Positions 1 through 21,386 of a stretch of DNA of 34,465 nucleotides are shown one piece after another; position 1 is the stretch's first letter, and each line of letters begins with the position of its first letter. Both the position numbers and the translations under genes were made by a program. The notes under the pieces were generated by a model. That model was not told the DNA's origin, did no database searches, and saw nothing but the letters and a program-made list of their open reading frames with translations. The DNA lies in IMG/VR virus record IMGVR_UViG_3300020347_000580, positions 1-34,465 of that record; one strand, 5' to 3'. Source of the DNA: a virus.

Positions 1-312
1 TTTTGTTCCCGTTATGTTGGAATCTATAAAACAGTTATCACCCAAGATAGAGTTATCTACGTGTGACTCTGCGGCAAAGTGTATGATACAATCAATATTA
101 TTTTTTTCTGCTATTCTTTTTATAGCCGATGTTTGACATATGTCAACTTGATAAAATTTAAAATTATTATGTGACTTTAGTGTAGACGGGTTTGCGGCGT
201 AAGTCATCTTATCAACGCCTACCACTTTACAGCCTTTCTTTAAGAAAAGTTCTAGCGCATGTCCACCAATAAAACCGGCGCATCCTGTCATAAGGATTCT
301 ACTCTTTTTCAT
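1..312 (-). CDS. rmlB: dTDP-glucose 4,6-dehydratase, N-terminal part (runs off the left edge)
   Basis: The first 104 codons are present; the gene continues beyond base 1. The product would convert dTDP-glucose to dTDP-4-keto-6-deoxyglucose in the cytoplasm, the common precursor of rhamnose, fucosamine and quinovosamine-type sugars. The N-terminus carries a Rossmann NAD-binding motif (TGCAGFIGGH, residues 9-18), then VDKMTYAAN (about 38-46), and HFAAESHVDNSI in the 80s, which is typical of RmlB rather than of generic epimerases. The ATG overlaps the end of the nucleotidyltransferase gene by 14 bases, which suggests coupled translation of RmlA and RmlB. The catalytic Tyr-x-x-x-Lys lies outside the window and cannot be checked. 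Confidence 0.88.
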   Translation of the reverse strand, partial: MKKSRILMTGCAGFIGGHALELFLKKGCKVVGVDKMTYAANPSTLKSHNNFKFYQVDICQTSAIKRIAEKNNIDCIIHFAAESHVDNSILGDNCFIDSNITGTK

Positions 313-1006
313 AAATTAATCCGTTTGTATAATGATAAGACTCCATAGTGCCAGCATCCATCCAGAAATCCTCTAGAACACCATATTCGCATTCGTGATT
401 TCTTAACATATAATTATTGACACTTGTTATTTCATATTCGCCTCTTGGCGATTTTTTTATTTTCTTTAGCGCATTGAAAACCTTATTACTGTACATATAG
501 ATTCCCATACAGCCCAGATTACTCTTGGGTTTTTTAGGCTTTTCTTCTATCTTTGTAAGCTTGTTCTGCTTTGTAAAAGTTCCAACCCCATACCTTTCTG
601 GGTCTTGCACTTCTTTAAAAAATAGTTTTGCGTCACAACTAAAGTTTTCAACATCTTTAGATAAGTCTCTTTCAAAGATATTGTCACCAAGTATAACTAA
701 GCAGCTATCATTATGCACAAAGTTCTTACATAGCTTGAGCGCTCCAGCGATGCCGTCAGGCTTGTCTTGGACTTTAAATGTAAATTGGCAGTCGTAGTCA
801 CTTCCGCTACCTAAAAAAGCTATCATATCGCCCACATGCCCAGTTCCACTGATAATCATTATGTCATCTATACCAGCATTTGTCATGCTAATAATAGGAT
901 AATGAATCATAGGGAAAGACCCTATAGGTAGTAGATGTTTATTTGTAACTTTTGTTAGTGGATATAGGCGACTACCAGTGCCTCCAGCTAGTATTATACC
1001 TTTCAT
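299..1006 (-). CDS. rmlA: Glucose-1-phosphate thymidylyltransferase, short form
   Basis: The 235-residue protein should couple glucose-1-phosphate and dTTP to give dTDP-glucose, feeding the adjacent RmlB. The nucleotide-binding signature GGTGSRLYPLT is at residues 8-18, followed by a K-x-LLPIG segment (KHLLPIG) that positions the substrate, LGDNIF near residue 111, EEKP near 155 and a WMDAGT motif near the end. Classical RmlA is about 290 residues. This one lacks the last 50 or so, which in classical enzymes help form the regulatory and dimer interface, so feedback control by dTDP-sugars may differ. The ATG overlaps the preceding stop as ATGA. A related short NDP-sugar pyrophosphorylase using another base is possible, but the RmlB neighbour favours dTTP. 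Confidence 0.85.
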   Translation of the reverse strand: MKGIILAGGTGSRLYPLTKVTNKHLLPIGSFPMIHYPIISMTNAGIDDIMIISGTGHVGDMIAFLGSGSDYDCQFTFKVQDKPDGIAGALKLCKNFVHNDSCLVILGDNIFERDLSKDVENFSCDAKLFFKEVQDPERYGVGTFTKQNKLTKIEEKPKKPKSNLGCMGIYMYSNKVFNALKKIKKSPRGEYEITSVNNYMLRNHECEYGVLEDFWMDAGTMESYHYTNGLIYEKE

Positions 1007-1965
1007 CTTTCTGCCTTTTCTATATTCAAATCTTTCATAACTTGTAACATTTGATCTATTTTATTATAGTTATATCCTAAATCAAAAGCCTGAGAAATTC
1101 TAGTATCTAGCAAATCTTTTAGGTCTGGTAGCTTGAAATGGTAACATTCTCTGAATATTTTCAAGCCTTCTTCTATAGGGATTTGATCATGATAAGATAT
1201 TGCAGCGCCAACTATTTCCGTAAGTTTATTAAATTCTTCCAGCCATAGTTTTGGATCATGACTAGATTCTATCCAAGTTCTCTGGTCTGGAAAGTGATCT
1301 CCTAAGCTTCCAGACTGCGTTTGTATTCTTTCGCTATATTCATGATGCATCCAAGGGAAATCTCCCCTGTAGCTATTACCAAAAACTGTGTTAAGATAGG
1401 ATGTTGCTTGCTCCACTACTCTAAAATATTGCGGATTTGCAATTTCTATAATTTTCCACATGGCTTGTATATATTTTGTTCTTGCTACATTATGCCAATT
1501 ACTATGGAATCTTTTGGTTTGTTCTACCACTCTTTCCGCAGCGCTACTTTCTATGATGGAGTCTGGATATAGGCTATACATATTGTTGCCCTGCATGTCT
1601 TGCATCAGACCTCTAGCAGAACAATAGCTATGGTCATTCAAGATTTCTACACACTTATTGATACCGTCTACATCAATAAAGTCGTCGTTATCCATCAACA
1701 AAGTCGTATCCGTATCTATTTTCATAGTCGCGCTTGCCATTTTTTTGTAAAAATCTTCAAGCGTAGCGTCAAAAGGATATCTTATGTATTCATAGTTTAG
1801 ATTTTCAAAATTTTGCTTATTTAGTAGCGCTAACTCTACACGATGATCTTGTCCTCCATCAGCTATCCATATTTTATACGGAAACTTTTCAGCGTTCCAT
1901 TTGTTCATAAGTCGCATTGTATAGTGACTTCTGTCTTTTAGAACAAGCAATATAGAAAAATTCAT
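1003..1965 (-). CDS. Glycosyltransferase, GT-A fold with DxD-type motif
   Basis: This 320-residue protein looks like a family 2-type glycosyltransferase. It opens with a beta strand (FSILLVLKDRSHYTMRLM), has IWIADGG in the 30s and a metal and nucleotide-sugar binding DNDD at residues 92-95. Substrate and linkage cannot be told. I start it at the ATG at 1965: AGGAAGG (1972-1978) is well placed upstream and the ATG follows the previous stop by one base. A seven-codon extension to a TTG at 1986 is possible but would overlap the neighbour for no clear reason. The C-terminal half (about 150-320) is helical and aromatic-rich with no domain I recognise. Confidence 0.75.
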   Translation of the reverse strand: MNFSILLVLKDRSHYTMRLMNKWNAEKFPYKIWIADGGQDHRVELALLNKQNFENLNYEYIRYPFDATLEDFYKKMASATMKIDTDTTLLMDNDDFIDVDGINKCVEILNDHSYCSARGLMQDMQGNNMYSLYPDSIIESSAAERVVEQTKRFHSNWHNVARTKYIQAMWKIIEIANPQYFRVVEQATSYLNTVFGNSYRGDFPWMHHEYSERIQTQSGSLGDHFPDQRTWIESSHDPKLWLEEFNKLTEIVGAAISYHDQIPIEEGLKIFRECYHFKLPDLKDLLDTRISQAFDLGYNYNKIDQMLQVMKDLNIEKAER

Positions 1966-1966
1966 A

Positions 1967-2572
1967 CTACACCTTCCTAGTTTCAACGTTTATCATAACA
2001 TCTCTGTCGCCTTTCCACTGAAACTTTTCAATAGATGGCTCACTAAACCCCAGCTTTTTACAAATGGCTTTAATTTTTGGGACAGTGTATGCGTTTTTAT
2101 GAAACTGCCCTTCTCCGTTTTGTGTTCCGAAAATACTGGCAGTTAGATAGCCCCATCTATTCTCTGTGGAGTATGAATAGTTTCCAAACCAATGCTGCTG
2201 CTCTATAGCTTCGTCATCATCTCTAAAAAAATCTTTCCAATTATCTTCTGCCTCTATCCATTTTTTGACACAATCTTCAAAGTCTGGAACGCAAAATCTT
2301 AGTAAGCCGCCAGTCTTTAGCGCTCTTTTAGCTTCATAGAAGAATTTTGACTCTTCTTTAAAAGAAAAATGCTCAATCAACGCATCACATCTTATTTCGT
2401 CTACAGAACCACTAGCAAATGGTAGTGTTAAAACATCTGCTTGCATAAATTCTAAATTGTCTTTGATTTCAATATTGGGATATCTCCTCTTAATATCCTC
2501 TATAGAATCCATATCTATGTTGATATATCCTTCTAGAAGTCTAGAAGCACATCCCAAATTCAATCTAATCAT
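1967..2572 (-). CDS. SAM-dependent methyltransferase (class I, type 11-like)
   Basis: This 201-residue cytoplasmic protein resembles predicted methyltransferases often found in polysaccharide clusters. LNLGCASRLLEGYINIDM (residues 4-21) is the glycine-rich SAM-binding loop of the subgroup whose signature is N-L-G-x-G/C...G-x-x-N-I-D. Further on are QADVLTLPFASGSVDEI (about 44-60), SALIEHF-like motif IV (DALIEHF) and LKTGGLLRFCVPDF (about 85-98). The target is probably a sugar hydroxyl or carboxyl in the locally made glycan, inferred from context. The gene overlaps the preceding RmlD-like gene by 8 bases, and its own end contains the ribosome-binding site of the next glycosyltransferase. Confidence 0.78.
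   Translation of the reverse strand: MIRLNLGCASRLLEGYINIDMDSIEDIKRRYPNIEIKDNLEFMQADVLTLPFASGSVDEIRCDALIEHFSFKEESKFFYEAKRALKTGGLLRFCVPDFEDCVKKWIEAEDNWKDFFRDDDEAIEQQHWFGNYSYSTENRWGYLTASIFGTQNGEGQFHKNAYTVPKIKAICKKLGFSEPSIEKFQWKGDRDVMINVETRKV
1972..1978 (-). promoter_or_regulatory. Ribosome-binding site AGGAAGG setting the start at 1965
   Basis: AGGAAGG lies six bases before the ATG at 1965, inside the end of the methyltransferase gene. It supports that start over the TTG at 1986. Confidence 0.7.
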
Positions 2573-3293
2573 TTAATATTTCCTTTAGTTTAGAGGTATT
2601 CATGCTGGTATCAGGCGCTATGCATACATCTTTTACGTCTTGTCTTGTTATTTTCTTAATCCTTGGATTTTTCTTAGAGGCAAAGTTGTATACGCTTTGA
2701 GAATCGCCTCCTAAATTTATAACGCCTTTTTCGTTCAGTAATTTAAGTATGATCCTAGCAGCTTCAAAATTATACATCAGGCTTTTTTTAACGTCAGTTA
2801 ATGCCTGACCATGAGGAAATGGATGGTCGCATATACAAGTTCTCAGTATTAAAGAGTTATCGTACATTCTTACGGCGCATTCTCCACCAAGCTTTGACCA
2901 CCCATACTTGTTAACACCGTCAGACTTCCCCGTAAAAGGAGAAAGCGCATCATCTTCATTATAGTCTCCATCTGTACCGGGATACACATAATCTGTTGAT
3001 ATATAAACTAATTTAACATTGTATTTCATACACGCTAAAACAACATTAGATGTACCAATTATATTAGCTTCGATGCTTTTATCTGGGTTGTCTTGATGCT
3101 TGTGCATGGGTCTTGTGTATGCAGCAGCATGAATAAACACGTCTGGATTGTGGTGTTTGATTTCATCTTCTATTTCCCACAGATTAGACACATTCATCTC
3201 TTGTCTACTGGGCGCTACAATGTTGTGACCGTTAGACTGTTCTATTATATTTTGGGCAAGATTACCTTTGCCGCCTGATATCATTACTTTCAT
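2565..3293 (-). CDS. RmlD-like NAD(P)-dependent sugar-nucleotide reductase
   Basis: This is a short-chain dehydrogenase of the dTDP-4-dehydrorhamnose reductase superfamily, which reduces the 4-keto group of a nucleotide-activated 6-deoxysugar. From the chosen ATG it has a Rossmann motif (SGGKGNLAQNI), FIHAAAYTRP, the strand with the catalytic Ser/Thr (YISTDYVYPG) and Tyr-x-x-x-Lys in KYGWSKLGGE. At about 242 residues it is shorter than bacterial RmlD (about 290-300). I prefer the ATG at 3293 over the GTG at 3305 because residues MKVMISGG begin the fold, although the upstream Shine-Dalgarno sequence is weak. The 29-base gap before it is the largest non-coding gap in the window. The exact product stereochemistry is unknown. 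Confidence 0.72.
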   Translation of the reverse strand: MKVMISGGKGNLAQNIIEQSNGHNIVAPSRQEMNVSNLWEIEDEIKHHNPDVFIHAAAYTRPMHKHQDNPDKSIEANIIGTSNVVLACMKYNVKLVYISTDYVYPGTDGDYNEDDALSPFTGKSDGVNKYGWSKLGGECAVRMYDNSLILRTCICDHPFPHGQALTDVKKSLMYNFEAARIILKLLNEKGVINLGGDSQSVYNFASKKNPRIKKITRQDVKDVCIAPDTSMNTSKLKEILND

Positions 3294-3322
3294 GAAAACT
3301 TTCACTTTTTAGCGTGATTACT

Positions 3323-3976
3323 TCAGCGAAACACTAAGTCGTTTTTAAATCTAGCTTTTGTAGCTTCGGGATTTGGATCTTCTGTTTCTATTGACCAATA
3401 CATAATCCCTATAGTTTTTCTATCTTTACCCTTGGTGATTTCTGGAAAGCCATGCCAAGAGTTTTCTTCAAACTTAAATATGTTCAATCTGTTAAATTTG
3501 TATTGTAGTCTACAATGCTCTTGCCCGTTATGCAACCTAAGATCGAATGAGTGATCATAGTCTTCTGATAGACCCAAAACAACACTGTACTGCCTTTTCC
3601 AGCTTGGGTTTAGAGCGTGTCTTTCTGCATCAATATGCATACCAAGAAAGCCGCCTTCGTCATTTTTGTTTGGAGTTATCATCATGCCGCCGCCGTACCC
3701 AGATATGTCTGGAAAAGCATTTTTAGTCATTCCTGTCATAAGATTTGGGTCAAAATTAAGAGCTATATAATCTGCGACTAGTGAACACTCTGTTGTCCAA
3801 CTATTTCTAGATGCTGGCGAACACATCTGAATTTGACCATCTTCTTTTCCATAGCGAATCCAAGTCTTTTCATCTATTTTGTCAAAACTTTCAGAAGCAG
3901 CCCTAACGATAGATTCAGACGGAATAAAGTCATCTATATACCAAGCGTTAAAATTTTCATATGGCTTAACTAGCAT
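3323..3976 (-). CDS. 2-oxoglutarate/Fe(II)-dependent oxygenase, prolyl-hydroxylase-like
   Basis: This 217-residue double-stranded beta-helix protein has the facial triad of the 2OG-Fe(II) superfamily: H114-x-D116 in GMHIDAERH and a distal H175 in SWHGFPEI, followed by a likely 2OG-binding arginine near 186 (DRKTIGIMYWS). Such enzymes hydroxylate proteins or small molecules with loss of CO2 from 2-oxoglutarate. Similar proteins are frequent in aquatic phages. Here it sits between the ketoisomerase and the RmlD-like reductase, so a sugar or glycan-linked substrate is reasonable, but a protein substrate cannot be excluded. It starts at an ATG overlapping the preceding gene by 11 bases. Confidence 0.75.
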   Translation of the reverse strand: MLVKPYENFNAWYIDDFIPSESIVRAASESFDKIDEKTWIRYGKEDGQIQMCSPASRNSWTTECSLVADYIALNFDPNLMTGMTKNAFPDISGYGGGMMITPNKNDEGGFLGMHIDAERHALNPSWKRQYSVVLGLSEDYDHSFDLRLHNGQEHCRLQYKFNRLNIFKFEENSWHGFPEITKGKDRKTIGIMYWSIETEDPNPEATKARFKNDLVFR

Positions 3977-4361
3977 TTATAAAGTCCTTCCAATTTGTTA
4001 TGTAATCGTCTTTATTATATTTTGTATTGCAGACAGAAAGCAGTATGGCATCTTCAGATTGATAAATTTGTTCGTCCCAAATCATCTCTGGTATGTATAA
4101 CCCTTTTGTTGGATCGTCTAATAAAAAATCTTTAGAATATCCTTGTCGATCCCTACAGATGCATAATATAGAGCCTGTTAGACAAAACAACATTTGACAG
4201 GTCTTATAGTGTGCGTGGTTGCCTCTTGGATTTTTTGATTGTACTCCAGAAACATAAAAAATTCTTTTAATTTCAAACGGAATATCTTCTATCGGTACAA
4301 GTAATCCGTCTTCAAGAAAACCTTTAAAGTCAAATACTTTTACATCTTCTACTGTATTCAC
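3966..4361 (-). CDS. fdtA: dTDP-6-deoxy-hexulose 3,4-ketoisomerase (FdtA/QdtA family cupin)
   Basis: This 131-residue cupin matches the sugar 3,4-ketoisomerase family, which moves the keto group of dTDP-4-keto-6-deoxyglucose from C4 to C3. Family hallmarks are RGNHAH (H49 and H51, the expected catalytic histidines), QMLFCLTGSI, GLYIPEMIWDEQIYQ and a C-terminal NTKYNKDDYITNWKDF. The usual next step is a PLP-dependent 3-aminotransferase, but none is visible in this window; it may lie past the left edge or come from the host. FdtA (fucosamine route) and QdtA (quinovosamine route) differ in C4 stereochemistry and cannot be separated by eye. Its GTG start overlaps the preceding stop (GTGA). Confidence 0.82.
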   Translation of the reverse strand: MNTVEDVKVFDFKGFLEDGLLVPIEDIPFEIKRIFYVSGVQSKNPRGNHAHYKTCQMLFCLTGSILCICRDRQGYSKDFLLDDPTKGLYIPEMIWDEQIYQSEDAILLSVCNTKYNKDDYITNWKDFINAS

Positions 4362-4759
4362 TTATTCACAACTCCCCAGTCTTCTCCAAAAGATCCCGGA
4401 GGTGTCTTCCATTCATCTTTAGGATTGTATTTATGGGTTAGATAATACATCATGATAGACTCTGGCTGAAGCGCCATATATCCATGCCAAATTCCCGGTT
4501 CTATCGTCAAAACTTTGTGATTTTTATCAGATATATACTCCCATTCTACCTTTACAGAACCATCTGACTGTGGAAAACCAAGCCCCACCTTGAAAGATCC
4601 TTTAGGGCAGAACCAGTAATCTGTTTGTAGAATATGTTTATGCCAAGCTACAATATGCGATGTAGAATTTATATGGGTAATATTAATTTGACCATCTACT
4701 TCTGGAAATATATTTAGAAGTCTTTGACCTCTATCGTCTTCATGGTATTGAACGCTCAT
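4358..4759 (-). CDS. RmlC-like cupin (putative dTDP-4-keto-6-deoxysugar epimerase)
   Basis: This 133-residue cupin resembles dTDP-4-dehydrorhamnose 3,5-epimerase and related sugar cupins. It begins with D-R-G (residues 9-11), then an AWHKHILQTDYWFCPKG strand pair with H40 and H42, an EPGIWHGYMAL turn and a C-terminal NPKDEW motif, as in RmlC proteins that end N-P-x-D. Bona fide RmlC is about 180 residues, so this is a compact relative, and the reaction (3-, 5- or 3,5-epimerisation, or binding only) is uncertain. It sits directly before the ketoisomerase, with overlapping stop and start, so both probably act on the same dTDP-4-keto-6-deoxy intermediate. Confidence 0.65.
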   Translation of the reverse strand: MSVQYHEDDRGQRLLNIFPEVDGQINITHINSTSHIVAWHKHILQTDYWFCPKGSFKVGLGFPQSDGSVKVEWEYISDKNHKVLTIEPGIWHGYMALQPESIMMYYLTHKYNPKDEWKTPPGSFGEDWGVVNK

Positions 4760-5928
4760 AGTAATTTAACCGTAGGGACATGAGTAATAAATTTTCCGTT
4801 AAAATCCTGTTCTTTATTTCTAATTTCTTGAGCAAAATTCCAAGCGCCCAAAAAAGCGAAATCAATAGTGTTATTAAAACCTTGTTCTGGAGGTATGATT
4901 GGTATGTGCATTCCCGGAGAATACTTGTTCTGTTTTTCTGGAGTTGTATCTGTTATATATTGTATCAGACTCGGCCCAATATTACAATAGTTAAATATAG
5001 TTGTAGACTTGGAAGTTGCTCCATAGCTTATAACCTTTTTACCTAGTTCTTCACATCTTATAAGAAGTTGTCTTAAATCAAGCTTGGATTGCTGCACCCT
5101 TTCCGCAAAGCGCTCCATCGTGTTTAGGGTATACAAACCTAAAAGTCTTTCTAGATCCAGATTATTTTGTACACTCTTATGCGGATTTGCAAAGTTAGAT
5201 TTTTTGGCCCAGATCCTATTAGATCCTCCATGAACATTAGTATTGTCAACCTTTACTATAGTCAAGCCATTTCTTTCCAGTATTTTACTTAGAGCAGTTA
5301 CAGAAAAGATGTGTGGATGCTCATCGTATATTTGATCATAGGAGTTTACATTTATCATCTCTACTAAAGAAGGATCTTCAAATACAAATACGCCATTTAA
5401 ACTTAGGATACTTTCTACAGCAGAGAATGCTTCGTCTAGATCTGGTATGTGACACATGCAGTTTGCAGAGAATACTAAATCCATATCTCCATTCTCTACA
5501 AGAATTTTATTTGCTAAATCTTTTGTCCAAAAATCATTATAAGTTTTGTATCCTAGATTATTAGTTTCTTTCGCGAAATTTCCGCATGGCTCTACAGCGA
5601 AAGATGTTTCAGTATCCCAGTTTTTTATAAATACGCCATCGTTACTTCCAATCTCTAAAACTTTAGGCGTAATTGGCAACGTTCTTTTGATATCGTTGCT
5701 AAACCTTGAAAAATGATTTCTCATAGTGGCAGACATAGAGCCTCTATATGAATATTCATCATTAAACATCATGGGCGCATCTACATAGTCCATATGCGTC
5801 ACTAGACATGTTTCTGTATCAAATCCAACTTTAAGATCGTAGAAAAACTCATCTTTAAATTCGTCTTGATTTAAAAAGCGATTTGCTATAGGCTGTCTAC
5901 CTAAGTCTAAAAATTCATGTTTACTCAC
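4756..5928 (-). CDS. Sugar C-methyltransferase (TylCIII/NovU-like three-domain family), N-terminal zinc site reduced
   Basis: This 390-residue enzyme belongs to the SAM-dependent methyltransferases that add a branch methyl at C3 or C5 of keto-deoxysugars. The central Rossmann domain has VLEIGSNDG (90-98). The family-specific YDEHPHIFS (201-209) and NVHGGSNR (231-238) segments, which include the catalytic base region, are intact. The C-terminal domain carries GATSKSTT (303-310). In relatives the N-terminus starts with a Cys-x-x-Cys zinc site before the LDLGxQPxAN stretch. Here the protein starts right at that stretch (FLDLGRQPIAN), with an in-frame TGA four codons upstream of the GTG, so the first cysteine pair is truly absent. 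A GAGG sequence supports the GTG start. The substrate is inferred to be the keto-sugar made next door. Confidence 0.83.
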   Translation of the reverse strand: MSKHEFLDLGRQPIANRFLNQDEFKDEFFYDLKVGFDTETCLVTHMDYVDAPMMFNDEYSYRGSMSATMRNHFSRFSNDIKRTLPITPKVLEIGSNDGVFIKNWDTETSFAVEPCGNFAKETNNLGYKTYNDFWTKDLANKILVENGDMDLVFSANCMCHIPDLDEAFSAVESILSLNGVFVFEDPSLVEMINVNSYDQIYDEHPHIFSVTALSKILERNGLTIVKVDNTNVHGGSNRIWAKKSNFANPHKSVQNNLDLERLLGLYTLNTMERFAERVQQSKLDLRQLLIRCEELGKKVISYGATSKSTTIFNYCNIGPSLIQYITDTTPEKQNKYSPGMHIPIIPPEQGFNNTIDFAFLGAWNFAQEIRNKEQDFNGKFITHVPTVKLL

Positions 5929-6592
5929 AATGCAACCTCACTACTAGTCTTTCTTTCCCCTTTTGACACTTACCACCTTTATGGAAAGTGTTGGTATCAA
6001 ATACAATCAAAGTACCAGCGGGAGCTTCTACAGGTTCCGCAGGATATTCAATAGCTAGATCTGGGTAGTCAAGCTCTATTCTGTTTTTAACCTCTTCGTA
6101 ATCTGGGGTGTTCCAAGCCTTGTGTCTCAAGCCTTCGCCCATAGCCCTAGATCCAACAGAACAAGCAAAAGCGCCTGAACTACTATCTATATCGGTGAGA
6201 TAAATGAAAAACTTTAATCTCCAAAGCCTGTCGAAATGAAGCCATCCGTTTCTAGCAAGCTCACCATCAAACTTGTAATCGTGAGTAGCAAAAACGTTAA
6301 TACCGTATCTATCTGGACTTCCCGTATACAAGCTATGAAGATCTTTCATCCACTTTTTGTTATAGGTTTTTGATATTGCTTTATTTTTTGAATATGTAGA
6401 TAGATCGCCTCCCCTGTAGTTCCTTCCAAATTCATAGTGTCCAGCGTCATGCTGACATCTAGCATATACTTCATCATATAGGCTTGTTAGATCAGAACCT
6501 TTTAGATAATTATCTATCTTAAAAACTCCATCACGAAACAAGGTTTTTCTCATTTCTTCTAGCGGTACATCGGTACTTAAATTTTGTATCAT
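5921..6592 (-). CDS. PhyH-like 2-oxoglutarate/Fe(II) dioxygenase
   Basis: This 223-residue protein of the phytanoyl-CoA dioxygenase superfamily shows the iron triad H119-x-D121 (WLHFDRLW) and H204 (NTFHKGGK), plus an arginine at 215 that would bind 2-oxoglutarate. The segment FFIYLTDIDSSSGAF matches the strand in PhyH proteins that ends in S/N-G-x-F/L. Members hydroxylate small molecules, lipids and sugar nucleotides. The place between a CMP-sugar synthetase and a sugar C-methyltransferase suggests a sugar-linked substrate. This is the second 2OG oxygenase in 3 kb, and the two are not close relatives by eye. The ATG overlaps the preceding stop (ATGA). Confidence 0.8.
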   Translation of the reverse strand: MIQNLSTDVPLEEMRKTLFRDGVFKIDNYLKGSDLTSLYDEVYARCQHDAGHYEFGRNYRGGDLSTYSKNKAISKTYNKKWMKDLHSLYTGSPDRYGINVFATHDYKFDGELARNGWLHFDRLWRLKFFIYLTDIDSSSGAFACSVGSRAMGEGLRHKAWNTPDYEEVKNRIELDYPDLAIEYPAEPVEAPAGTLIVFDTNTFHKGGKCQKGKERLVVRLHCE

Positions 6593-7251: not shown

Positions 7252-7424
7252 GATATTTCCTCGTTAATTTTTTTAATAGTATCACTTGCCGTAGTAGTGA
7301 AAGTAAAAGGTGCAAATGCATGAATACAACAACAAAAACCAGAAATAATCATTCTAATTCCTATATATGTCGCTTTTTTAAAGTGAGATAAATACGTTAT
7401 ATTATGTTCTTTTAAATGATTCAC
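7248..7424 (-). CDS. Small membrane protein, 58 residues, DUF6356/capsule-associated type
   Basis: This gene is easily missed because it is short and starts with GTG. It fills what would otherwise be a 169-base gap. Its GTG overlaps the KdsA stop (GTGA), and its TGA overlaps the TTG of the cytidylyltransferase (TTGA), so it fits the coupled operon exactly. The protein opens with HLKEHNITYLSHFKKA, then has one hydrophobic segment (about residues 20-41, with CCC and IHAFAPF), then TTTASDTIKK. This pattern, HLKE-N-x-TY-x-x-H then H-A-x-x-PF then T-T-A/G-S-D-T, recalls a small protein family often annotated as capsule biosynthesis protein in aquatic bacteria and phages; that family match is from memory. 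One membrane span is likely. Function is unknown. Confidence 0.75.
   Translation of the reverse strand: MNHLKEHNITYLSHFKKATYIGIRMIISGFCCCIHAFAPFTFTTTASDTIKKINEEIS
7256..7262 (-). promoter_or_regulatory. Ribosome-binding site GAGGAAA for the TTG start at 7251
   Basis: GAGGAAA is four bases before the TTG counted from its end, with its GAGG core seven bases away. The TTG itself overlaps the preceding TGA as TTGA. There is no nearby in-frame ATG that keeps the IPARSGS motif. Confidence 0.7.
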
Positions 7425-13889: not shown

Positions 13890-14928
13890 TTAACGCATCC
13901 TTATAAGCTTTCAAAATACCAAAAGACAAATCTTCATAACCAAACTCTTTCATAATTGTTGCAATCCTATGAAAGCCTGTGTGGTTTTCGGAAACAAGCT
14001 TTTGCCCCTTGTACATAATTTCAGGCATGGATAACCTGCCCTCGTCCGTATTTAAATAGTGTTCAATTTTATCTCTAAAATCATTTGGAGAATCCGCAAT
14101 TACAATACCATCACCAAACATCTTGTATGCTTCTACATTATCACTAATACAGAAGCCACCCGCATACAGAATTTTAAATATTCTTTCATTTACATCTATG
14201 CCATATACCTGCGCGTGAGGCTCGCTTAGATTTGGACATATCTTAGCAGAAACAAATAAGTTTTTTACATCTTGGTCATCTATCAGGCCACAGTATTGAT
14301 TTACGCCCCAAGGTTGGTTGCCAAATATTTTTACATTGTAGCGATCAAGTGGATGTAGCAGTGGAGTAAGATAGCGGTCAATCACCTGACCCTTGTAGGG
14401 CCAGTAACCGCCCACAAAACCAATATCACATGTTAGCTTTGGATCGACCTGAGCGCCGCTGTAGACTGCTGTATCCGCACACATCATTAACGATACGGGT
14501 TTGATCCCGATGGTTTCAAAATAGTTATGAGTTCTTTTAATGTCGTCATCACTATAATGAATATGTACAAAGTCTGGTTTTCCTGTTTCGTCTTTAAGTT
14601 TTTTGAGTAATTCTTTTTCTTTTTTGGAGCAGAATAGAATGTTGTATTTTGATTTATCTACTTCCTTTTCTTGATCGCCCCAATCTCCAGCACGTAGACC
14701 AACTTTTAGGTGCGGCCTTTCATATATACATTTTATTAAAGCTTCGTCTAGGTTGTAGGATTGACCTAAAAACAAGTCTGGCTCAAAAGTGTCAAATATA
14801 TCAAACGCCGGAACTGTTTTGCAGTCCCATAGCATAACTTGATGTCCTGTGGCTAAAAAAGCATTAGCCCAAGCCATTCTTTGAAAATAGTGAGCGTGAC
14901 CACCATCACTAGAAATTAAAATTTTCAT
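13876..14928 (-). CDS. GT-B glycosyltransferase, CgeB/group 1-like
   Basis: This 350-residue protein has a two-Rossmann GT-B look. The start is KILISSDGGHAHYFQRMAWA (2-21), a first-domain substrate loop. CDIGFVGGYWPYKG (about 167-180) begins the second domain, and NERIFKILYAGGFCISDN (about 248-265) is the donor-binding region found in CgeB-type and other spore/maturation glycosyltransferases. No DxD is expected in this fold. There is no signal peptide or membrane span. Sugar specificity is unknown. It overlaps the upstream nucleotidyltransferase by 20 bases and the fucose synthase by 14, so it is embedded in the coupled operon. Confidence 0.75.
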   Translation of the reverse strand: MKILISSDGGHAHYFQRMAWANAFLATGHQVMLWDCKTVPAFDIFDTFEPDLFLGQSYNLDEALIKCIYERPHLKVGLRAGDWGDQEKEVDKSKYNILFCSKKEKELLKKLKDETGKPDFVHIHYSDDDIKRTHNYFETIGIKPVSLMMCADTAVYSGAQVDPKLTCDIGFVGGYWPYKGQVIDRYLTPLLHPLDRYNVKIFGNQPWGVNQYCGLIDDQDVKNLFVSAKICPNLSEPHAQVYGIDVNERIFKILYAGGFCISDNVEAYKMFGDGIVIADSPNDFRDKIEHYLNTDEGRLSMPEIMYKGQKLVSENHTGFHRIATIMKEFGYEDLSFGILKAYKDALNEQK

Positions 14929-15637
14929 TCTTTAAATCCTTTATACAATCTATCTCTATTATCGACATGTCTTTTGGTTCGTAGCATTCAAAATTAGCAC
15001 CCATAGAAATCATCTTATTTATTATTTCAAATGATAGAAGTTTCTTTTGACTTCCGTGAAGTTTCTGCAATATACTTCTTAGTATTTTTAACTCTTTACC
15101 AGTAACAAATGCTATTTGACACCACTTAGTAGGAAGTCCGTAAGACAATACTGTAGCTTTATTATTTTGTATCGTCACCCCTATTTCTTTTGGCTTCATC
15201 ATATCTTTATTGTCTACCAGCAGAAAGGACTTTTTGTAATTTAGATTTAAAAAAACCTTTTCATTAAAATATAGATCTCCATGAAAAAATAATATGTTTT
15301 TTTTGTTGGTATTATTTACCGCCAATCTAAGACTTTCTGAATTATTTGTTTCGTAATATATTTGGTTTTCTACCACTCTTAATTTACCAGATATTTTTTT
15401 AATTATCTTTTCTATATTGTATCCAAAAACGCCCACTATTTCCTGATTGTTTATATTGCTATTGATAATATCAATTTGATGCTCTATTAACGATTTAGAT
15501 CCTATCTTTATTAAGCTTCGTGGTTCATTTGATTTTATTCTACTTCCAACTCCCGCAGATAATATAATAACTGTCATATCATTCTTATTATTTTCAGCAT
15601 TTATAGAGGCTGTGATCTGTCTAGTAAATCTACCCAC
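14909..15637 (-). CDS. Sugar nucleotidyltransferase (NTP_transferase family), AT-rich
   Basis: This protein resembles small sugar-1-phosphate or phosphocholine nucleotidyltransferases. VIILSAGVGSRIKSNEPRSL is the nucleotide-binding loop and KIGSKSLIEHQI the following segment. ILFFHGDLYFNEKVF holds the metal-binding Asp. Two starts are possible: GTG at 15637, overlapping the preceding TAG by one base, gives 242 residues, and ATG at 15577 gives 222 and places the conserved loop at the usual N-terminal position. The shorter form is more natural for the fold, but neither has a strong Shine-Dalgarno sequence. The protein is noticeably richer in Asn, Lys and Ile than its neighbours, which hints at a separate origin. 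Confidence 0.68.
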   Translation of the reverse strand: MGRFTRQITASINAENNKNDMTVIILSAGVGSRIKSNEPRSLIKIGSKSLIEHQIDIINSNINNQEIVGVFGYNIEKIIKKISGKLRVVENQIYYETNNSESLRLAVNNTNKKNILFFHGDLYFNEKVFLNLNYKKSFLLVDNKDMMKPKEIGVTIQNNKATVLSYGLPTKWCQIAFVTGKELKILRSILQKLHGSQKKLLSFEIINKMISMGANFECYEPKDMSIIEIDCIKDLKNENFNF

Positions 15638-16425
15638 TAGCGACTACCTAATATTTGGGCGTGTTGCTGGAAAATCTCTGTAGTCATTTTCATAGACTGA
15701 TTTTGACCGCTTTCGTTTACAATAGAAAGAGATTCTGGGACGTGACACATGATACAATAATGTGACAACCGCAACCATAAATCGTAGTCTTCTGTGCAGC
15801 CTATAAAGCCTTGACTCGCGGGACCGTGTAATCTACTGTCAAAGATTTCACCATTAGGAAGAATTACTTTTTCTAAGTATTCTTTTTTAATCAGGGCATT
15901 GCTGTGAACCATACAGCTTTGTGAAAGCCCCCTTCTGCAATATGCGCCTTTTGCTTCGTATTTTACATAGTGCTTGTCGCCATAGCTTCTATGGATGTCA
16001 TAGTCACCATAAGCCACTCCGACTTCTGGATACTCCATTAGTTTTTCTACTAGTTTTTCGACTTTAGTGGGCTTGTAAGCGTCATCAGCATCCAAAACGC
16101 CAATAATATCGGCCCAGTCCCAGCACATGTCAATCGCTACATTACGAGCGACACTGGCTCCAGAGTTTTCGATTCTTTTCCTAAAGAGGACATTATCTGT
16201 AATTTCCTCGACAGTGTTCATCATTGGATTTCCGAATGGGTCTTTATCTTCAAAATATCTTATGCTTGAAATCTTTTCCCAAGAATCGTCAGTCGATCCA
16301 TCGTCCACGACATACAGGCGAATTTCACCCCTATAAGTCTGCCAGCCGAGGACACTTTTCATAGCGGCTTCAATATAGTCACCATAGTTATAATTCGCAC
16401 AAATAATAGCTACTTTAGGAAGCAT
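15637..16425 (-). CDS. Family 2 glycosyltransferase
   Basis: This 262-residue inverting GT-A enzyme shows a textbook family 2 layout. VAIICANYNYGDYIEAAMKSVL (5-26) is followed by YVVDDGSTDDSW (38-49), the nucleotide-binding aspartates; then NSGASVARNVAID (87-99) and the metal-binding DADD in IGVLDADDAYKP (108-119). The late segment GCTEDYDLWLRLSHY supplies the acceptor-side E-D catalytic region (ED at the start of the motif). It acts in the cytoplasm with no membrane span. The ATG overlaps the previous gene by 11 bases. Donor sugar is unknown. Confidence 0.92.
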   Translation of the reverse strand: MLPKVAIICANYNYGDYIEAAMKSVLGWQTYRGEIRLYVVDDGSTDDSWEKISSIRYFEDKDPFGNPMMNTVEEITDNVLFRKRIENSGASVARNVAIDMCWDWADIIGVLDADDAYKPTKVEKLVEKLMEYPEVGVAYGDYDIHRSYGDKHYVKYEAKGAYCRRGLSQSCMVHSNALIKKEYLEKVILPNGEIFDSRLHGPASQGFIGCTEDYDLWLRLSHYCIMCHVPESLSIVNESGQNQSMKMTTEIFQQHAQILGSR

Positions 16426-17230
16426 TAAATTCCTCCCAAGTAATAAGAGTTTCGCCAGTATCGTCTTTCATGTCTTCTACCTTCTCTAGAAACGGTCTTC
16501 CATCAAATTCTAATTCACCGTCATTTGTTTCGTATGCTTTTTTGTGGTTGCCATTTAACATCTTAAACAATGGAGTAGAAAATAGCAGACCGTTAAAATC
16601 ATCATATGGCTTAACAACAGATAGCCTCTTCATATCTACGTTTATTCTTTGATTAATTTTTTCAATCAGTTCTTCATCAATACTTTCTCCAGATGTCGTT
16701 GTGTATATCCACCCATTCTTAGCGTGTCTAAAGCACTCATCAACAAGAAACATTTTGTTTTCTGGCATTTCAGAAACTTTAATTAAATGATGCAAAGTCT
16801 TTTCATGATCAAATTCATTTACAAGCATTTCCTGTATCTCTGTGTTATACTCTGTCTTATCTGTAACAACCATCAAGTATCTGGCCTGATGTAGCGTCTG
16901 GTTTTTAATATCCTTAATAGTTTTTTCAAGGTTTTTCATAGCTACTAATTTTTCGGCAGTGTCTTTGGATGTATCTAAAATAATTAAAAATCCAATTCTT
17001 GGCACGACCTCTTTTAAGGCTACTTGATGCCTTTTTTTATATTGTTCTAAAGATAGTTCAGAAAGCCATTCTTCTGGTCTATATGTGTTACAAAACCTTT
17101 GCAGAACATAACCCCCATCTTCTGTATCGCAAATCCCAAGTTTTTCAGATCTATAAAGTTCGCATCCGGTTTGTTGTTCCTCTTTCTCTATTGCAAAGAC
17201 ACACCCTTTACACGATGTTTGCGCTCTCAT
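16415..17230 (-). CDS. Cys-cluster protein with degenerate GT-A-like domain
   Basis: This 271-residue protein is not confidently assigned. The first 50 residues carry a cysteine set, C7-x-x-C10, C23, C34 and C47, in contexts CKGCVFA, QTGCELYR and RFCNTYRPEEW that look like a metal or Fe-S site; similar N-termini occur in marine phage proteins as far as I recall. Residues about 78-250 read like a family 2 glycosyltransferase fold: a hydrophobic strand FLIILD, then LEKTIKDIKNQTLHQARYLMVVTD, and NGLLFSTPLFKMLNGNHKK near the end. The DxD position is occupied by IYTTTSGESID, with no acidic pair. It may bind rather than transfer sugar. It is flanked by glycan genes with ATGA coupling. Confidence 0.5.
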   Translation of the reverse strand: MRAQTSCKGCVFAIEKEEQQTGCELYRSEKLGICDTEDGGYVLQRFCNTYRPEEWLSELSLEQYKKRHQVALKEVVPRIGFLIILDTSKDTAEKLVAMKNLEKTIKDIKNQTLHQARYLMVVTDKTEYNTEIQEMLVNEFDHEKTLHHLIKVSEMPENKMFLVDECFRHAKNGWIYTTTSGESIDEELIEKINQRINVDMKRLSVVKPYDDFNGLLFSTPLFKMLNGNHKKAYETNDGELEFDGRPFLEKVEDMKDDTGETLITWEEFNAS

Positions 17231-17643
17231 CTTGCTCTCCTTATTTTTAATACAGATAGTGAAGATTCAGATATATACTTCTGCTGTACTTCAAAGTTTT
17301 CCGGTATTATAGATTGTAGCTTGTCTGTATTCATTATAGATTTTTTAGAACTTTCAAAAAATACTTCATTAAAATAAGCTAAATCGACATCGCCCCTCGT
17401 ATACATTCTAAATAAAATATTACAGTCAGGCTCAATTATAGTAACTTCACAGCCAATTCGACACTTTTTTAATACCTCTTTTATTGCCTGCTCCAATTCT
17501 ACAAAAGAAAAAGAAGAAAGGAAACAATCTATCGTTAAAGAAGTTATTTCACTATCAGAAAACGTTCTATCTAGTGACGCTAAATTAGAATGGTGCTTAA
17601 AAGAAGAGTCTGGCGAAGGCTTGTTTGACAAATATACTTTCAT
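17227..17643 (-). CDS. Small protein, possibly a degenerate methyltransferase-like domain
   Basis: The 138-residue product is not clearly recognised. Its middle (SLTIDCFLSSFSFVELEQAIKE, given here in part) and the following CRIGCEVTIIEPDCNILFRM recall the second half of a class I SAM-dependent methyltransferase, where a helix is followed by a strand with the pattern L-R-x-G-G-x-x-x-I. The end, VQQKYISESSLSVLKIRRAR, resembles the last strand pair of such proteins. No glycine-rich SAM loop precedes it, so it would be inactive or act with a partner. It sits between a glycosyltransferase and the Cys-cluster protein, joined by TAATG and ATGA overlaps. Confidence 0.45.
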   Translation of the reverse strand: MKVYLSNKPSPDSSFKHHSNLASLDRTFSDSEITSLTIDCFLSSFSFVELEQAIKEVLKKCRIGCEVTIIEPDCNILFRMYTRGDVDLAYFNEVFFESSKKSIMNTDKLQSIIPENFEVQQKYISESSLSVLKIRRAR

Positions 17644-18662
17644 TATATGTTCCTGTATTCATTTACTGTAGAGTATAATAGATTATTCCAGCTATCAACA
17701 AATCTTTCGAGATTATATTTTTCAACTATGGTTTTTCTGGCGTTACCACCTAGTTCTTTCGCTAAGTTTTCATCTTTAATAAGAAGCTCTAAGAAGCCGC
17801 GCAGTTCTTGTGGGTCATTTGAGATTAGTCCATTCTTGCCGTTCTCAATTATTTCTGGTATCATGCAGTTAGCCGTAGAAACAATAGCGCAACCACAAGC
17901 CATAGCTTCTAATAATACACTAGGAACAGGAGAGTGTAAAGATGTATTATAAAATATTCTTGAACATTTATAAATTTCTCTTAAATGCTCTGTAGAATTA
18001 GCAGGCTCAGAAAGTCCGGGGCTTTTACCAAAAACTTTAATTGGAAGACCTTGAACTGTTTGTTGCCACAGATTATATCCGCAGCACCAATCTCTATTAG
18101 GCCAATCATTCACAACAGAAAGACAGGCATTATCTCTCTCTATATTTTCATCAGGCTTCCAAAAATCTATATCTACTCCATGCTCCACAGCGCTCGCGCC
18201 AGCCGCTCCCCACTGAGCCATATTATACGTCGAGATAAATGAGTCCTTATCTCTCGGATACTGTTGAAATGCCGCGATCTGAGACGGCACGTCAAACCTA
18301 ACGTCAGGAAGAACGTGGGTATGTCTGAGGATAGGGATTCCAGTTTTGTTTCCCTGAGTAACGTCTGAGCCTGCTAGATGTTGGTGAGCCTTAAACATTC
18401 TGTCACATGATGTATGTGTCAAAATTAGGTCAAAATCAATATAGTCAGGTATAGTATTGACGATATGATAATTGTCTGGAACAGGAGCGTAGTCTGTATC
18501 CCAAGTTTTACCAATAGCCAATGAATAAAAGTTATGACCAGTTTTACAAAGGTTTTCTTCGTATCTTTCGTGTGTAGCAAAAGTTAATATGTTCAACTTT
18601 CTATCGGGATCACGCTTTCTCATTATTGCTCTTATCGCTCTTTTGTTCGCATTAGCCGTCAT
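17643..18662 (-). CDS. Family 4-like GT-B glycosyltransferase
   Basis: This 339-residue protein has the C-terminal domain of group 1 glycosyltransferases. PSVLLEAMACGCAIVSTANC (247-266) is the donor-binding motif, followed by IPEIIENGKNGLISNDP and a helical end with NARKTIVEKYNLERF. In the usual E-x7-E motif only the second glutamate (E252) is kept; the first is Ser244, which may affect retaining chemistry. The first 20 residues are strongly basic (KRAIRAIMRKRDPDRK), which could aid membrane association or reflect an added tail. The start codon is ATG overlapping the previous gene by 11 bases. Donor sugar is unknown. Confidence 0.82.
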   Translation of the reverse strand: MTANANKRAIRAIMRKRDPDRKLNILTFATHERYEENLCKTGHNFYSLAIGKTWDTDYAPVPDNYHIVNTIPDYIDFDLILTHTSCDRMFKAHQHLAGSDVTQGNKTGIPILRHTHVLPDVRFDVPSQIAAFQQYPRDKDSFISTYNMAQWGAAGASAVEHGVDIDFWKPDENIERDNACLSVVNDWPNRDWCCGYNLWQQTVQGLPIKVFGKSPGLSEPANSTEHLREIYKCSRIFYNTSLHSPVPSVLLEAMACGCAIVSTANCMIPEIIENGKNGLISNDPQELRGFLELLIKDENLAKELGGNARKTIVEKYNLERFVDSWNNLLYSTVNEYRNI

Positions 18663-19746
18663 TTAAAATCTCCTTGAGCTTCAATCCTATTTCTTTATGA
18701 GAAAATTCTGACGCCCTTTTTAAAGCTTCTCGACTTTCTTCTGTAGCAATTTCTGTATTCCATTTCATAAACACTTCTCTCATAGAAACCATTAAATCCT
18801 CTAGGTCAATTTTTCTCCATTTTTCATTAGCGGTATACAGATAATCTATTGTTGACATAGCGCCAAAACAGGGAATTTCTGAAGACTTAACAGCAGACCC
18901 AGAACAGAAGTCATCCATGCCAGTACCTTCTGTGTAGATTACTGGAATCCCCATAGCCATAGCCTCTAAAGCAGGAATACAAAAACCTTCACCCCGACTA
19001 GGCATTACAAATGAGTGGCACTGAGAAATAGTGGACATGTAATCTTCTTTTCCTAGTTGTCCACATATAACAACTTCTTCTTTGTATTCTTTCCTTAGCT
19101 TTAAACCCTGTTTAATCTGCTTAAAATAATTTTGAACGTAATCTAATGACTGCTGAGAAGTTTTAATATATAGGTTTACAGGTTCATCTGGTTCAAACTC
19201 CATATGAAAGGCTTTAACCAAGGCTTGTATGTTTTTTCTTTCTACAAACTCTCCAACAAAAACAAAATTAAACGTGTTGATTAGGTTGTCTATCTTGGAA
19301 CCTTGATTTAAATACTTTACAGAATTGTATTTGGAAATATCTAAAGAGTGTGGAGCAATTTTTACGGGCTGGGTAATTTCGCTTTGTATACATGCGTTTT
19401 TGCAGGATTGGGTTGGAACCCAAATTTCATCCATCAAGTTAGCATGATGCTGCCAAGAGCTTTCAATAAAGTTACTGGTTTCCGTAGCTATGAAACCTAT
19501 GTTTTTGAATTTCGAGTCGTAAGAATATAGATGGGGAAGTGTATGCTGAATACAGATGTCACAACCAACTTCTGAATTATTTTCAAGCTCTAATATTCTA
19601 TCGGGACAGCTTCCGGCAGAATTGTTAAAGGTTATAGCGCGAGGCACAACCTCTACTCCAACAGCATCTAGCGCTAGTATATTATTTATACATGCATTAG
19701 CCCATCCTGTTCCGTCTTTATAATTTCCTATGTATAAGACTTTCAT
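18652..19746 (-). CDS. Family 4 glycosyltransferase (GT-B)
   Basis: This 364-residue retaining GT-B enzyme has a complete donor site. FVFVGEFVERKNIQALVKAF (161-180) begins the second domain, and MPSRGEGFCIPALEAMAMG (248-266) holds the E253-x7-E261 pair typical of family 4. The following IPVIYTEGTG is the strand that lines the donor phosphate. The first domain begins with KVLYIGNYKDGTGWANACI, including the acceptor-side GTGW loop. It is soluble with no obvious membrane anchor. It is flanked by two further GT-B genes, so three consecutive GT-B enzymes may add successive sugars. The start is an ATGA overlap. Confidence 0.9.
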   Translation of the reverse strand: MKVLYIGNYKDGTGWANACINNILALDAVGVEVVPRAITFNNSAGSCPDRILELENNSEVGCDICIQHTLPHLYSYDSKFKNIGFIATETSNFIESSWQHHANLMDEIWVPTQSCKNACIQSEITQPVKIAPHSLDISKYNSVKYLNQGSKIDNLINTFNFVFVGEFVERKNIQALVKAFHMEFEPDEPVNLYIKTSQQSLDYVQNYFKQIKQGLKLRKEYKEEVVICGQLGKEDYMSTISQCHSFVMPSRGEGFCIPALEAMAMGIPVIYTEGTGMDDFCSGSAVKSSEIPCFGAMSTIDYLYTANEKWRKIDLEDLMVSMREVFMKWNTEIATEESREALKRASEFSHKEIGLKLKEILNDG

Positions 19747-21386
19747 TTAGCACTCATTTCCTGTTGAATTTTTTGTATCCTAATATGTTCCCAGTTATTT
19801 AATTGATTTCTAAAATTAGCCATCTCTTCACAGGCTTGCTGTATAGAAAATGGAGAATTGCTACTTTGATTTTTGATATGGGATTCATTAAAGTAAAATT
19901 GCTTATCCATGTTTTCACATCTGTAACCAAAAGATACGTCTCTTAGTACTCTTTTCCACAAATATCCGCCTATCCATTCCGGCTTATGAAGTATATTTGT
20001 AAATATATAATTAACAGCATCAGTAGTAGAAGACATACCTTGCGGTAGCGAAGGGCTAGGTGCTGGAGCGTTTAGGGGAGAATACCAAGTGGTTGCAGGA
20101 TCTTTATTTTCTACTGTTTTAAAATGTTTAGCCCAAGCATCCGCAGCTTTATCCCAGCTATAATTTTCTAAAGCTCTAGCTCTAGTATTAGCACCCATCT
20201 CTGGAAGTAAATCCCTTTTTTCATGTAGCTGTTTTAGTAAATTGATAAAAGCCTCATTATTTGGTATAGCTCTTTTGCATCCCGTTTCACATTCTACATA
20301 GTAAGAACTTGGAATAACTCCAAATCCTCCAATGTTTTTTACAACAGACTCCATAGCTGAATAGTCTACAGAGATTACCGGAAGTGCAGCATTAGCCGCT
20401 TCCAGTTGAGGCATACCAAAACCCTCGCTGTTCGCGTATTGAACGTAGACATCAAAACAATTATAAACAGCGGCAAGTTCTTCATCCGATATAGGATTAG
20501 CTATGCCTACCATGTGGTTATTTAAAGACTGACAGCTTGAGCAGTTTTGTATTGAGTTTTGAAAGAAGTCTACGGAAACTTTTCCGCAGCTTTTGCACTT
20601 ATAAGTCACCAAAACTCTACTAGCTAGTCCGCTTTCATGAATTAGTTTAGGTAAATCCCATCCTACATCTGGATAATACGTGTGACAGTATAAAAACGCA
20701 TTAGGATCTTGTGTCTGATCAAGAAATTTTCTAAACGACTGCATCAAGTCTGGATATAGTTTTCTTTTTTGATTCCTCATAACTGTTCCGACAATAAAAC
20801 AATCAGGAGAAACTCCCATGCTAGCTTTATGCGCGGGCTTGTCTGGAGCGGGTGTAAAACATTTGCTTGCTGCCGGTGATGCTATGTCTACAAAATTTAT
20901 ATCGTCGCATTGATTAATCATTGTATCTCTTCCAAATTCAGAGTAAGCAAAAACTGAATCAGCAGAAGCGTATGTATTGATCCATTGATCCGCCTGTGGC
21001 GTAGCGTCAACAGTTGGCATGATTGACCAATGAAAGAAATCTCTAAAGGGGGATCGTTGCTCAAACTCCATCATCCACCAGTCTCTAATATCCATAACGA
21101 CATCAGGCTTAAAATCTAGCAACACAGAATTGAATGATTGATCTCCAAATTGGGCAGTTGGATTCGATTTATATGCTGCGTATTCTGGGGAGTCTGGACT
21201 TGGCTTATTGCCATAAAATTTCCAAGGTAGATTTTTTTCTTGTGACTCAGATGTTTCTGCGTAACAGCCTAGTTCCGCCACCTCGAAATCGTCTACTTGG
21301 CAAAGTCTGGATAGAACTTCTTTGGTGTATACGGAATATCCGGTAGCATACCAAGAAGCTTCCGTACAGAAAAGTATTTTTTTCAT
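19743..21386 (-). CDS. Large GT-B glycosyltransferase with inserted zinc ribbon
   Basis: This 547-residue protein is a family 4-like glycosyltransferase with an unusual insertion. The first domain starts KILFCTEASWYATGYSVYT. The second domain begins near residue 196 (FIVGTVMRNQKRKLYPDLM). Just where the donor domain continues, a four-cysteine zinc ribbon appears: C264-x-x-C267 and C282-x-x-C285. The E321-x7-E329 donor motif follows in NSEGFGMPQLEAANAALP. About 120 C-terminal residues after 430 lie outside the fold, with Pro-rich and helical parts. A related architecture appears in some phage glycosyltransferases, from memory. The gene directly follows the polymerase C-terminal gene with an ATGA overlap, so glycan and replication genes share one coupled transcript here. 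Confidence 0.83.
   Translation of the reverse strand: MKKILFCTEASWYATGYSVYTKEVLSRLCQVDDFEVAELGCYAETSESQEKNLPWKFYGNKPSPDSPEYAAYKSNPTAQFGDQSFNSVLLDFKPDVVMDIRDWWMMEFEQRSPFRDFFHWSIMPTVDATPQADQWINTYASADSVFAYSEFGRDTMINQCDDINFVDIASPAASKCFTPAPDKPAHKASMGVSPDCFIVGTVMRNQKRKLYPDLMQSFRKFLDQTQDPNAFLYCHTYYPDVGWDLPKLIHESGLASRVLVTYKCKSCGKVSVDFFQNSIQNCSSCQSLNNHMVGIANPISDEELAAVYNCFDVYVQYANSEGFGMPQLEAANAALPVISVDYSAMESVVKNIGGFGVIPSSYYVECETGCKRAIPNNEAFINLLKQLHEKRDLLPEMGANTRARALENYSWDKAADAWAKHFKTVENKDPATTWYSPLNAPAPSPSLPQGMSSTTDAVNYIFTNILHKPEWIGGYLWKRVLRDVSFGYRCENMDKQFYFNESHIKNQSSNSPFSIQQACEEMANFRNQLNNWEHIRIQKIQQEMSAK

Follow-up and report, generated by a model that had tools for sequence, protein, structure and literature searches.

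A glycan-synthesis island in a tailed-phage genome

What would a phage make with a long, unbroken run of sugar genes, and where would it put the product? The question is raised by IMG/VR record IMGVR_UViG_3300020347_000580, a linear fragment of 34,465 bases analyzed here over its whole length (the window). A total of 44 ORFs (open reading frames) were accepted as genes, minus strand throughout, with a coding density of 99.1% and 38 of 43 junctions overlapping or abutting. Positions 1–21386 hold 27 of them (g01–g27), mostly overlapping, with g01 truncated at the contig end. The sole gap in this run (169 bases, 7252–7420) is occupied by an ORF of 58 amino acids (aa), and there is therefore no real break. 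Nearly all 27 ORFs match glycan families of Pfam or NCBIfam (glycosyltransfer, nucleotide-sugar synthesis, methylation, and oxidation), and the two without a family, g23 and g24, gave GT-A-like and methyltransferase-like fold predictions, respectively. An earlier sequence-only reading had described about 25 consecutive same-direction glycan genes without a break, coupled to replication genes in a phage-like genome. This large island is confirmed; it overlaps the polymerase gene g28 through g27 and belongs to a phage genome (see below). The answer we favor, with middling confidence, is that an uncultured lineage of tailed phages uses this island to make a fucose-containing oligosaccharide, whose acceptor would most likely be a virion protein.

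The window from 34.5 to 21.4 kb includes phage replication genes on the same strand as the glycan run, and relatives with the same conserved core carry terminase and tape-measure genes, placing the lineage among the tailed phages. In a helicase survey, for which the best 80 of 204 related viral contigs were fetched, the gene order from g44 to g27 was kept in the long contigs. The sequence-only reading had suggested a search for tail genes beyond the contig end, and relatives do contain them. One contig (L224) carries the cassette of the window at 84–97% protein identity over g02–g13 and continues through a completed g01, three added genes and four small conserved genes into convergent phage tail-region genes. 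Another record (G001) has the same core with a different cassette, followed by tail genes including one for a 2,620-aa tape-measure-like protein, the family match having been made on its counterpart in G004. Six long records besides G004 have terminase genes, as does G003 by evident sequence likeness.

No isolate phage close to the lineage was found in the phage collection. Window positions 1–25000 had no megablast match in phage records, g20 had none among 50,697 phage records, and searches with the polymerase, helicase, g27, g20, and terminase gave no isolate relatives or only distant ones, the best terminase matches listed from the collection being below 30% identity. A literature search, not exhaustive, retrieved no paper describing the lineage. 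Moraphages (PMC12619734), considered since glycosyltransferases are core genes there, were discarded, having T4-like virion genes and a different replication set.

A conserved core and an exchangeable cassette

A survey with g20 recovered 80 contigs. Removal of near-identical ones left 58 non-redundant viral contigs, of which 55 show the colinear order g28-g27-...-g18. The exceptions were two contigs without g19 in place (L151 and L156) and one (L184) whose discrepant match is a distant, weak match to g23. Six core genes (g27, g26, g25, g22, g21, and g20) were present in 56 of 56 contigs covering them; g23 was found in 55, g19 in 46 of 47, g18 in 42 of 47, and the short, fast-evolving g24 in 39 of 56. 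Overall, every surveyed contig that spans its position has the core, and the cassette alone is accessory. As g20, the query, is itself a core gene, universality is not demonstrable from this survey alone; in the independent helicase survey g27 was present in the long contigs reaching that far, and it was found in 14 of 14 relatives. Core identity to the window tracks that of polymerase g28 (rho 0.72–0.85, with P-values that are not independent tests, the contigs being related by descent).

Beyond g18, 415 ORFs in 47 contigs make up 152 families with 89 singletons, a number inflated by partial cassettes at contig ends, and contigs with 86–90% identical g20 may have zero cassette families in common. 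Between the window and contig L120, synonymous divergence is 1.1–2.8 for g21–g30 and 0.15–1.1 for g07–g20, so the cassette and the core end appear to have been shared more recently than the rest. Against L121 the pattern is reversed, with 0.02–0.10 for g26–g30 and 0.5–0.95 for g18–g20. The ratio of nonsynonymous to synonymous divergence (dN/dS) is at most 0.23 in all compared genes of core and cassette (0.04–0.06 in the polymerase), and both parts are therefore under purifying selection. These comparisons indicate that the core is vertically inherited and the cassette horizontally exchanged.

Predicted sugars and a split GDP-fucose pathway

The island includes nucleotidyltransferases (g02, g11, and g21), epimerase/dehydratase-type enzymes (g01, g05, and g19), glycosyltransferases by family match (g03, g15, g16, g20, g22, g25, g26, and g27, with g18 weakly), methyltransferases (g04, g14, and g17), and Fe(II) oxygenases (g06 and g10). 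The ten core genes comprise seven for glycosyltransferases (five clear, two weak), a nucleotidyltransferase, the GDP-fucose synthase and a methyltransferase-like protein. The cassette appears to be a rare-sugar supply, here of dTDP-linked deoxysugars and a CMP-linked ulosonate. Its dTDP set comprises g02, g01, g07, g09, and a partial g05. In L224 the cassette extends about 2.5 kb further, with the rest of RmlB, ORFs of 216 and 102 aa and a DegT/DnrJ aminotransferase that adds to this set just beyond the window's end. These enzymes would fit an amino- or C-methyl-branched deoxysugar; the RmlD-like g05 is partial, and no complete rhamnose route is apparent. The CMP set consists of the KDO-8-P-synthase-like g12 and the NeuA/PseF-like g11.

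Three nucleotide-sugar routes (dTDP, GDP, and CMP) had been read side by side from the window. The dTDP and CMP routes hold, whereas the GDP route is only half there, as the second enzyme, g19, which matches the structure of E. coli GDP-fucose synthetase (1bws). Its partner, GDP-mannose 4,6-dehydratase (GMD), lies outside the window, 1.3–1.8 kb from the terminase in eight of the eight records having both (G003, G004, G016, G017, G018, G019, G021, and G024). Three long records without GMD (G020, G022, and G023) gave no terminase match either and probably do not include the packaging region. Together, GMD from the packaging region and g19 from the core are predicted to complete the two-step synthesis of GDP-fucose, split between regions. 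Genes for GT10 (the fucosyltransferase family), GT7, sulfotransferase, pyruvyltransferase, and 2OG-oxygenase proteins were also found among or beside the tail genes of relatives, on the same strand. Both the division into conserved core and swappable cassette and this predicted split pathway are additions that needed relatives.

Candidate acceptors

In the reading we favor, the island enzymes would work in the cytosol during infection. With GDP-L-fucose supplied by GMD and g19, the core transferases would assemble a single, conserved oligosaccharide containing fucose, which the cassette would extend by a strain-specific outer part. The acceptor would most likely be a virion protein, of capsid or tail, because the lineage has no membrane step of its own and its packaging and tail regions include sugar-modifying genes. 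The exchangeable end could then give phage "serotypes" altering adsorption, stability or recognition.

The membrane step was sought with a hydropathy scan. Among the 27 window genes, 255 island ORFs, and 415 cassette ORFs, none has two or more predicted spans, which leaves no candidate for a flippase, a polymerase or any other multi-spanning membrane protein. Run as a positive control on the E. coli K-12 O-antigen locus, the scan picks out the polymerase and flippase there (WbbH, 6 spans; RfbX, 9 spans). Single-span predictions were limited to one G003 ORF and a hydrophobic segment of g25-type proteins, which probably belongs to the transferase fold. Initiating transferases of the Bac_transf family (PF02397) were absent from 15 records, with a control positive in nine genomes, the WecA type being covered by the hydropathy scan only. 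The island is therefore not a self-sufficient surface-polysaccharide pathway.

Several points weigh against a virion acceptor. No protein-linking transferase was recognized, and the acceptor is a prediction; membrane spans were judged from simple hydropathy; ORFs were called mechanically, and most enzyme assignments are at family level, several of them under curated cut-offs. Besides, peripheral transferases acting on host lipid-linked sugars have no spans either, and remodeling of the host surface is still compatible with these results.

Such remodeling is the alternative that survives best, and we regard it as a real, if lesser, possibility. In infected cells the island would alter the host's lipopolysaccharide (LPS) or capsule so that superinfection or grazing is blocked, with the host exporting the altered lipid-linked units. 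This is the published reading of comparable clusters in P-SSM2 (PMC2984593) and pelagimyophages (PMC7029224); it agrees with the LPS-type sugars expected from g12, g11 and, in a relative, heptose enzymes, and a hypervariable cassette would suit the matching of host surfaces. However, no initiating transferase, flippase, polymerase or exporter was found in any island, a core conserved like the replisome would be odd for a function tied to a particular host surface, and GMD adjoins the terminase as other glycan genes adjoin tail genes.

Decoration of the phage DNA, as a shield against host nucleases, would explain why the island is linked to polymerase and dNMP kinase genes and why the GT47-like g32 lies within the replication block, and phage transferases that glycosylate DNA are known, as cited in PMC12619734. 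We consider it improbable. Neither a thymidylate synthase/hydroxymethylase-type gene (PF00303; 24 records) nor a C5-cytosine methyltransferase (PF00145; 15 records) was found, so that these records, all of them fragments, offer no visible route to a hydroxylated base; a Tet_JBP search was empty, as was its control. Amino, C-methyl, and ulosonate sugars also seem excessive for this purpose. Less probable still is that the island is cargo without strong function, "stuffer DNA" for headful packaging, an idea published for cyanophage LPS clusters (PMC3037559) and in keeping with the fast turnover of cassettes, since purifying selection acts throughout and the core order is fixed. A bacterial O-antigen locus beside a prophage fragment, the case that the sequence-only reading had set against its own proposal, has similar gene types but is excluded for practical purposes by the viral genes on both sides in relatives, the missing flippase and polymerase, and the origin of the window as an IMG/VR record. 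We would thus rank a virion protein as the most likely acceptor, the host surface as less likely and DNA as unlikely.

Feature map and additional observations

TABLE 1. Features of the window, listed from the replication genes toward the contig end.
Feature	Position	Strand	Evidence or remark
Exonuclease g33, dNMP kinase g34, primase g35, DnaB-like helicase g36, UvsX-like recombinase g40	26283..32963	-	PHROGs; synteny in relatives
g29 DnaQ-like exonuclease, g30, g31 DNA polymerase III alpha N-terminal half	22914..25394	-	
g28 DNA polymerase III alpha, C-terminal half (fingers, HhH, OB)	21383..22951	-	Pfam 7.9e-44
Conserved core g27 to g18	12110..21386	-	Ten genes, fixed order, directly after polymerase gene
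g27 glycosyltransferase (GT-B, Glycos_transf_1)	19743..21386	-	Pfam 8.8e-10; overlaps g28 stop by 4 bases
g26 glycosyltransferase (Glyco_trans_1_4)	18652..19746	-	Pfam 2.1e-16
g25 glycosyltransferase (Glycos_transf_1)	17643..18662	-	Pfam 5.1e-16
g24 short methyltransferase-like fold	17227..17643	-	No Pfam family; model pLDDT 93; Foldseek SAM methyltransferases E 1e-5
g23 GT-A-like protein	16415..17230	-	Model pLDDT 80; weak Foldseek matches to GT2 enzymes, e.g., TarS, TM about 0.4
g22 glycosyltransferase family 2	15637..16425	-	Pfam 2.6e-19
g21 sugar-phosphate nucleotidyltransferase-like (MobA/GlmU N-domain)	14909..15637	-	Pfam 1.4e-8; GlmU model 1e-11, under cut-off
g20 glycosyltransferase (Glyco_trans_1_2)	13876..14928	-	Pfam 8.6e-17
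g19 GDP-L-fucose synthase (Fcl/WcaG type)	12924..13889	-	NCBIfam GDPFucSynFcl 2.8e-82, under curated cut-off; 1bws 1.1e-62
g18 possible GT2-type glycosyltransferase, last core gene	12110..12952	-	Pfam Glycos_transf_2 E 0.07; position conserved
Variable cassette g17 to g01	1..12113	-	Cut by contig end
g17 FkbM methyltransferase	11472..12113	-	Pfam 3.7e-16
g16 glycosyltransferase family 8	10544..11551	-	Pfam 1.5e-5
g15 glycosyltransferase family 2	9663..10547	-	Pfam 2.3e-9
g14 methyltransferase	9062..9670	-	Pfam 7.4e-8
g13 DHDPS/KDG-aldolase-like	8187..9065	-	Pfam 1.1e-4, just under cut-off; NCBIfam KDG aldolase 1.8e-8
g12 3-deoxy-octulosonate-8-phosphate-synthase-like	7421..8194	-	NCBIfam 8e-69; solved KDO8P synthases 2e-47
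58-aa ORF	7248..7424	-	Fills only gap of run
g11 CMP-sugar synthetase (NeuA/PseF-like)	6589..7251	-	PseF 4.6e-35; NeuA structure 7e-23
g10 PhyH-type Fe(II)/2-oxoglutarate dioxygenase	5921..6592	-	Pfam 1.9e-7
g09 sugar 3-C-methyltransferase	4756..5928	-	Sugar 3-C-methyl transferase/TcaB9 2.5e-82
g08 cupin, weak RmlC/WbuC similarity	4358..4759	-	Pfam 1e-6
g07 FdtA/QdtA-type dTDP-sugar 3,4-ketoisomerase	3966..4361	-	Pfam 2.8e-33; QdtA, FdtA structures
g06 2OG-Fe(II) oxygenase	3323..3976	-	Pfam 2e-7
g05 RmlD-like reductase	2565..3305	-	Pfam 2.2e-31; match to N-terminal half of model only
g04 methyltransferase	1967..2572	-	Pfam 1.4e-9
g03 glycosyltransferase (TIGR04440)	1003..1986	-	NCBIfam 4.2e-33, over cut-off
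g02 RmlA-type glucose-1-phosphate thymidylyltransferase	299..1006	-	NCBIfam 2.1e-62, under cut-off
g01 RmlB-type dTDP-glucose 4,6-dehydratase	1..312	-	Cut by contig end; NCBIfam search; full-length relative 1.8e-93

The DNA polymerase III alpha of the window (21383–25394) is split between palm and fingers into ORFs g31 and g28, with a 72-aa ORF and the DnaQ-like exonuclease gene lying between the halves. The split is common to the lineage, while in a sister group (L185, L187, and L189) the gene is one continuous ORF (1,138 aa in L185). A split intein at the break was considered and rejected, none being visible by eye at the ORF ends and the gene being whole in the sister group. Many relatives have a short SSB-like ORF (L120:3272–3577 and equivalents) between the C-terminal half of the polymerase and g27, which is missing from the window and from L103. 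Sugar genes also occur inside the replication block: the GT47/exostosin-like g32 (25369–26283), beside the polymerase, is absent or replaced in several relatives, and a homologue of the RmlA-like g02 (63% identical) is inserted between g33 and g32 in G005 (L051:14278) and also in L048, L047, and L050.

Within the core, four N-terminal cysteines of g23 (C7, C10, C23, and C47) are invariant in the alignment, possibly a metal site on this GT-A-like protein. In many relatives the cassette is closed distally by a set of four small conserved genes (156, 259, 255, and 109 aa; L224:11751–14079), which have weak HTH/DUF559-like and zinc-ribbon-like matches. In G003, a relative, L084:16672–18240 codes for a GlmS-like transaminase and L082:6397–6861 for a fatty acid hydroxylase. 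A host lead comes from two adjacent DUF1501 proteins in G005 (L087:11265–13768), one of which is 59–64% identical to its three best matches, all in Planctomycetota metagenome-assembled genomes; this is a single-gene lead. Planctomycetota were also considered as a source of the core, or as holding copies of it, and set aside, g20 giving partial, weak domain matches only, in 39 of 392 genomes. No RNA families or tRNAs were found, and promoter and terminator scans did no better than shuffles.

Comparison with known systems

Large sugar clusters are already known in phages. Cyanophage P-SSM2 carries two clusters with 24 sugar genes in total, for which a role in altering the host surface has been proposed (PMC2984593), S-SSM7 also has a large cluster (PMC2984593, PMC3037559), and the function of cyanophage LPS clusters has been called unknown or possibly that of stuffer DNA (PMC3037559). 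The sequence-only reading had argued from the size of the block that the virus builds its own oligosaccharide; the gene set is indeed large enough for one, but size does not set the block apart from those of P-SSM2 and S-SSM7, and what is new here is the core-plus-cassette architecture. Like the lineage, P-SSM2, S-SSM7, and S-SM2 are tailed phages of aquatic origin in which nucleotide-sugar, glycosyltransferase, 2OG oxygenase, and methyltransferase genes form long runs. However, the large cyanophage clusters occur in a few larger genomes, whereas all surveyed members of the lineage have a ten-gene core after the replisome, along with an exchangeable cassette, and the lineage's polymerase is of the pol III alpha type instead of T4 gp43. 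Pelagimyophages, with LPS-type genes in a hypervariable tail-fibre region (PMC7029224), are similar in having glycosyltransferases in variable regions near tail genes, although these phages are T4-like and their genes are partly scattered in twos or threes, unlike the run described here. The E. coli K-12 rfb locus shares RmlA/B/D-type enzymes and transferases with the island, but only rfb has a flippase and a polymerase.

It had been unsettled whether the large "LPS" clusters of phages have a function or serve as filler (PMC3037559). In this lineage, purifying selection, a fixed gene order and inheritance together with the polymerase point to a functional core, as stable as the replisome, with a cassette end exchanged like O-antigen. 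The acceptor question becomes testable in a defined lineage, in which GDP-fucose synthesis appears linked to the packaging region. Should the virion prove to be the acceptor, these would be phages with surface serotypes built by their own pathway.

Glycosylation of capsid and tail by phage-encoded transferases has been reported in mycobacteriophages (Freeman et al., 2023, as cited in PMC12619734), with few genes involved (two putative glycosyltransferases in Maravista) compared with the whole pathway of the lineage. The closest working analogue is the chlorovirus PBCV-1, for which the portions of PMC7826918 and PMC4691112 drawn on here describe a viral GMD and GDP-fucose synthase, several glycosyltransferases and a core glycan common to all chloroviruses. 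PBCV-1 is an unrelated eukaryotic virus, the glycans of its major capsid protein are proven where those of the lineage are only predicted, and the same portions describe no exchange cassette of the type found here. We tentatively extend the analogy to the whole lineage, which might practice a chlorovirus-like, autonomous virion glycosylation, with a fucose-containing core oligosaccharide inherited with the replisome and an exchanged, cassette-encoded terminal glycan defining phage serotypes.

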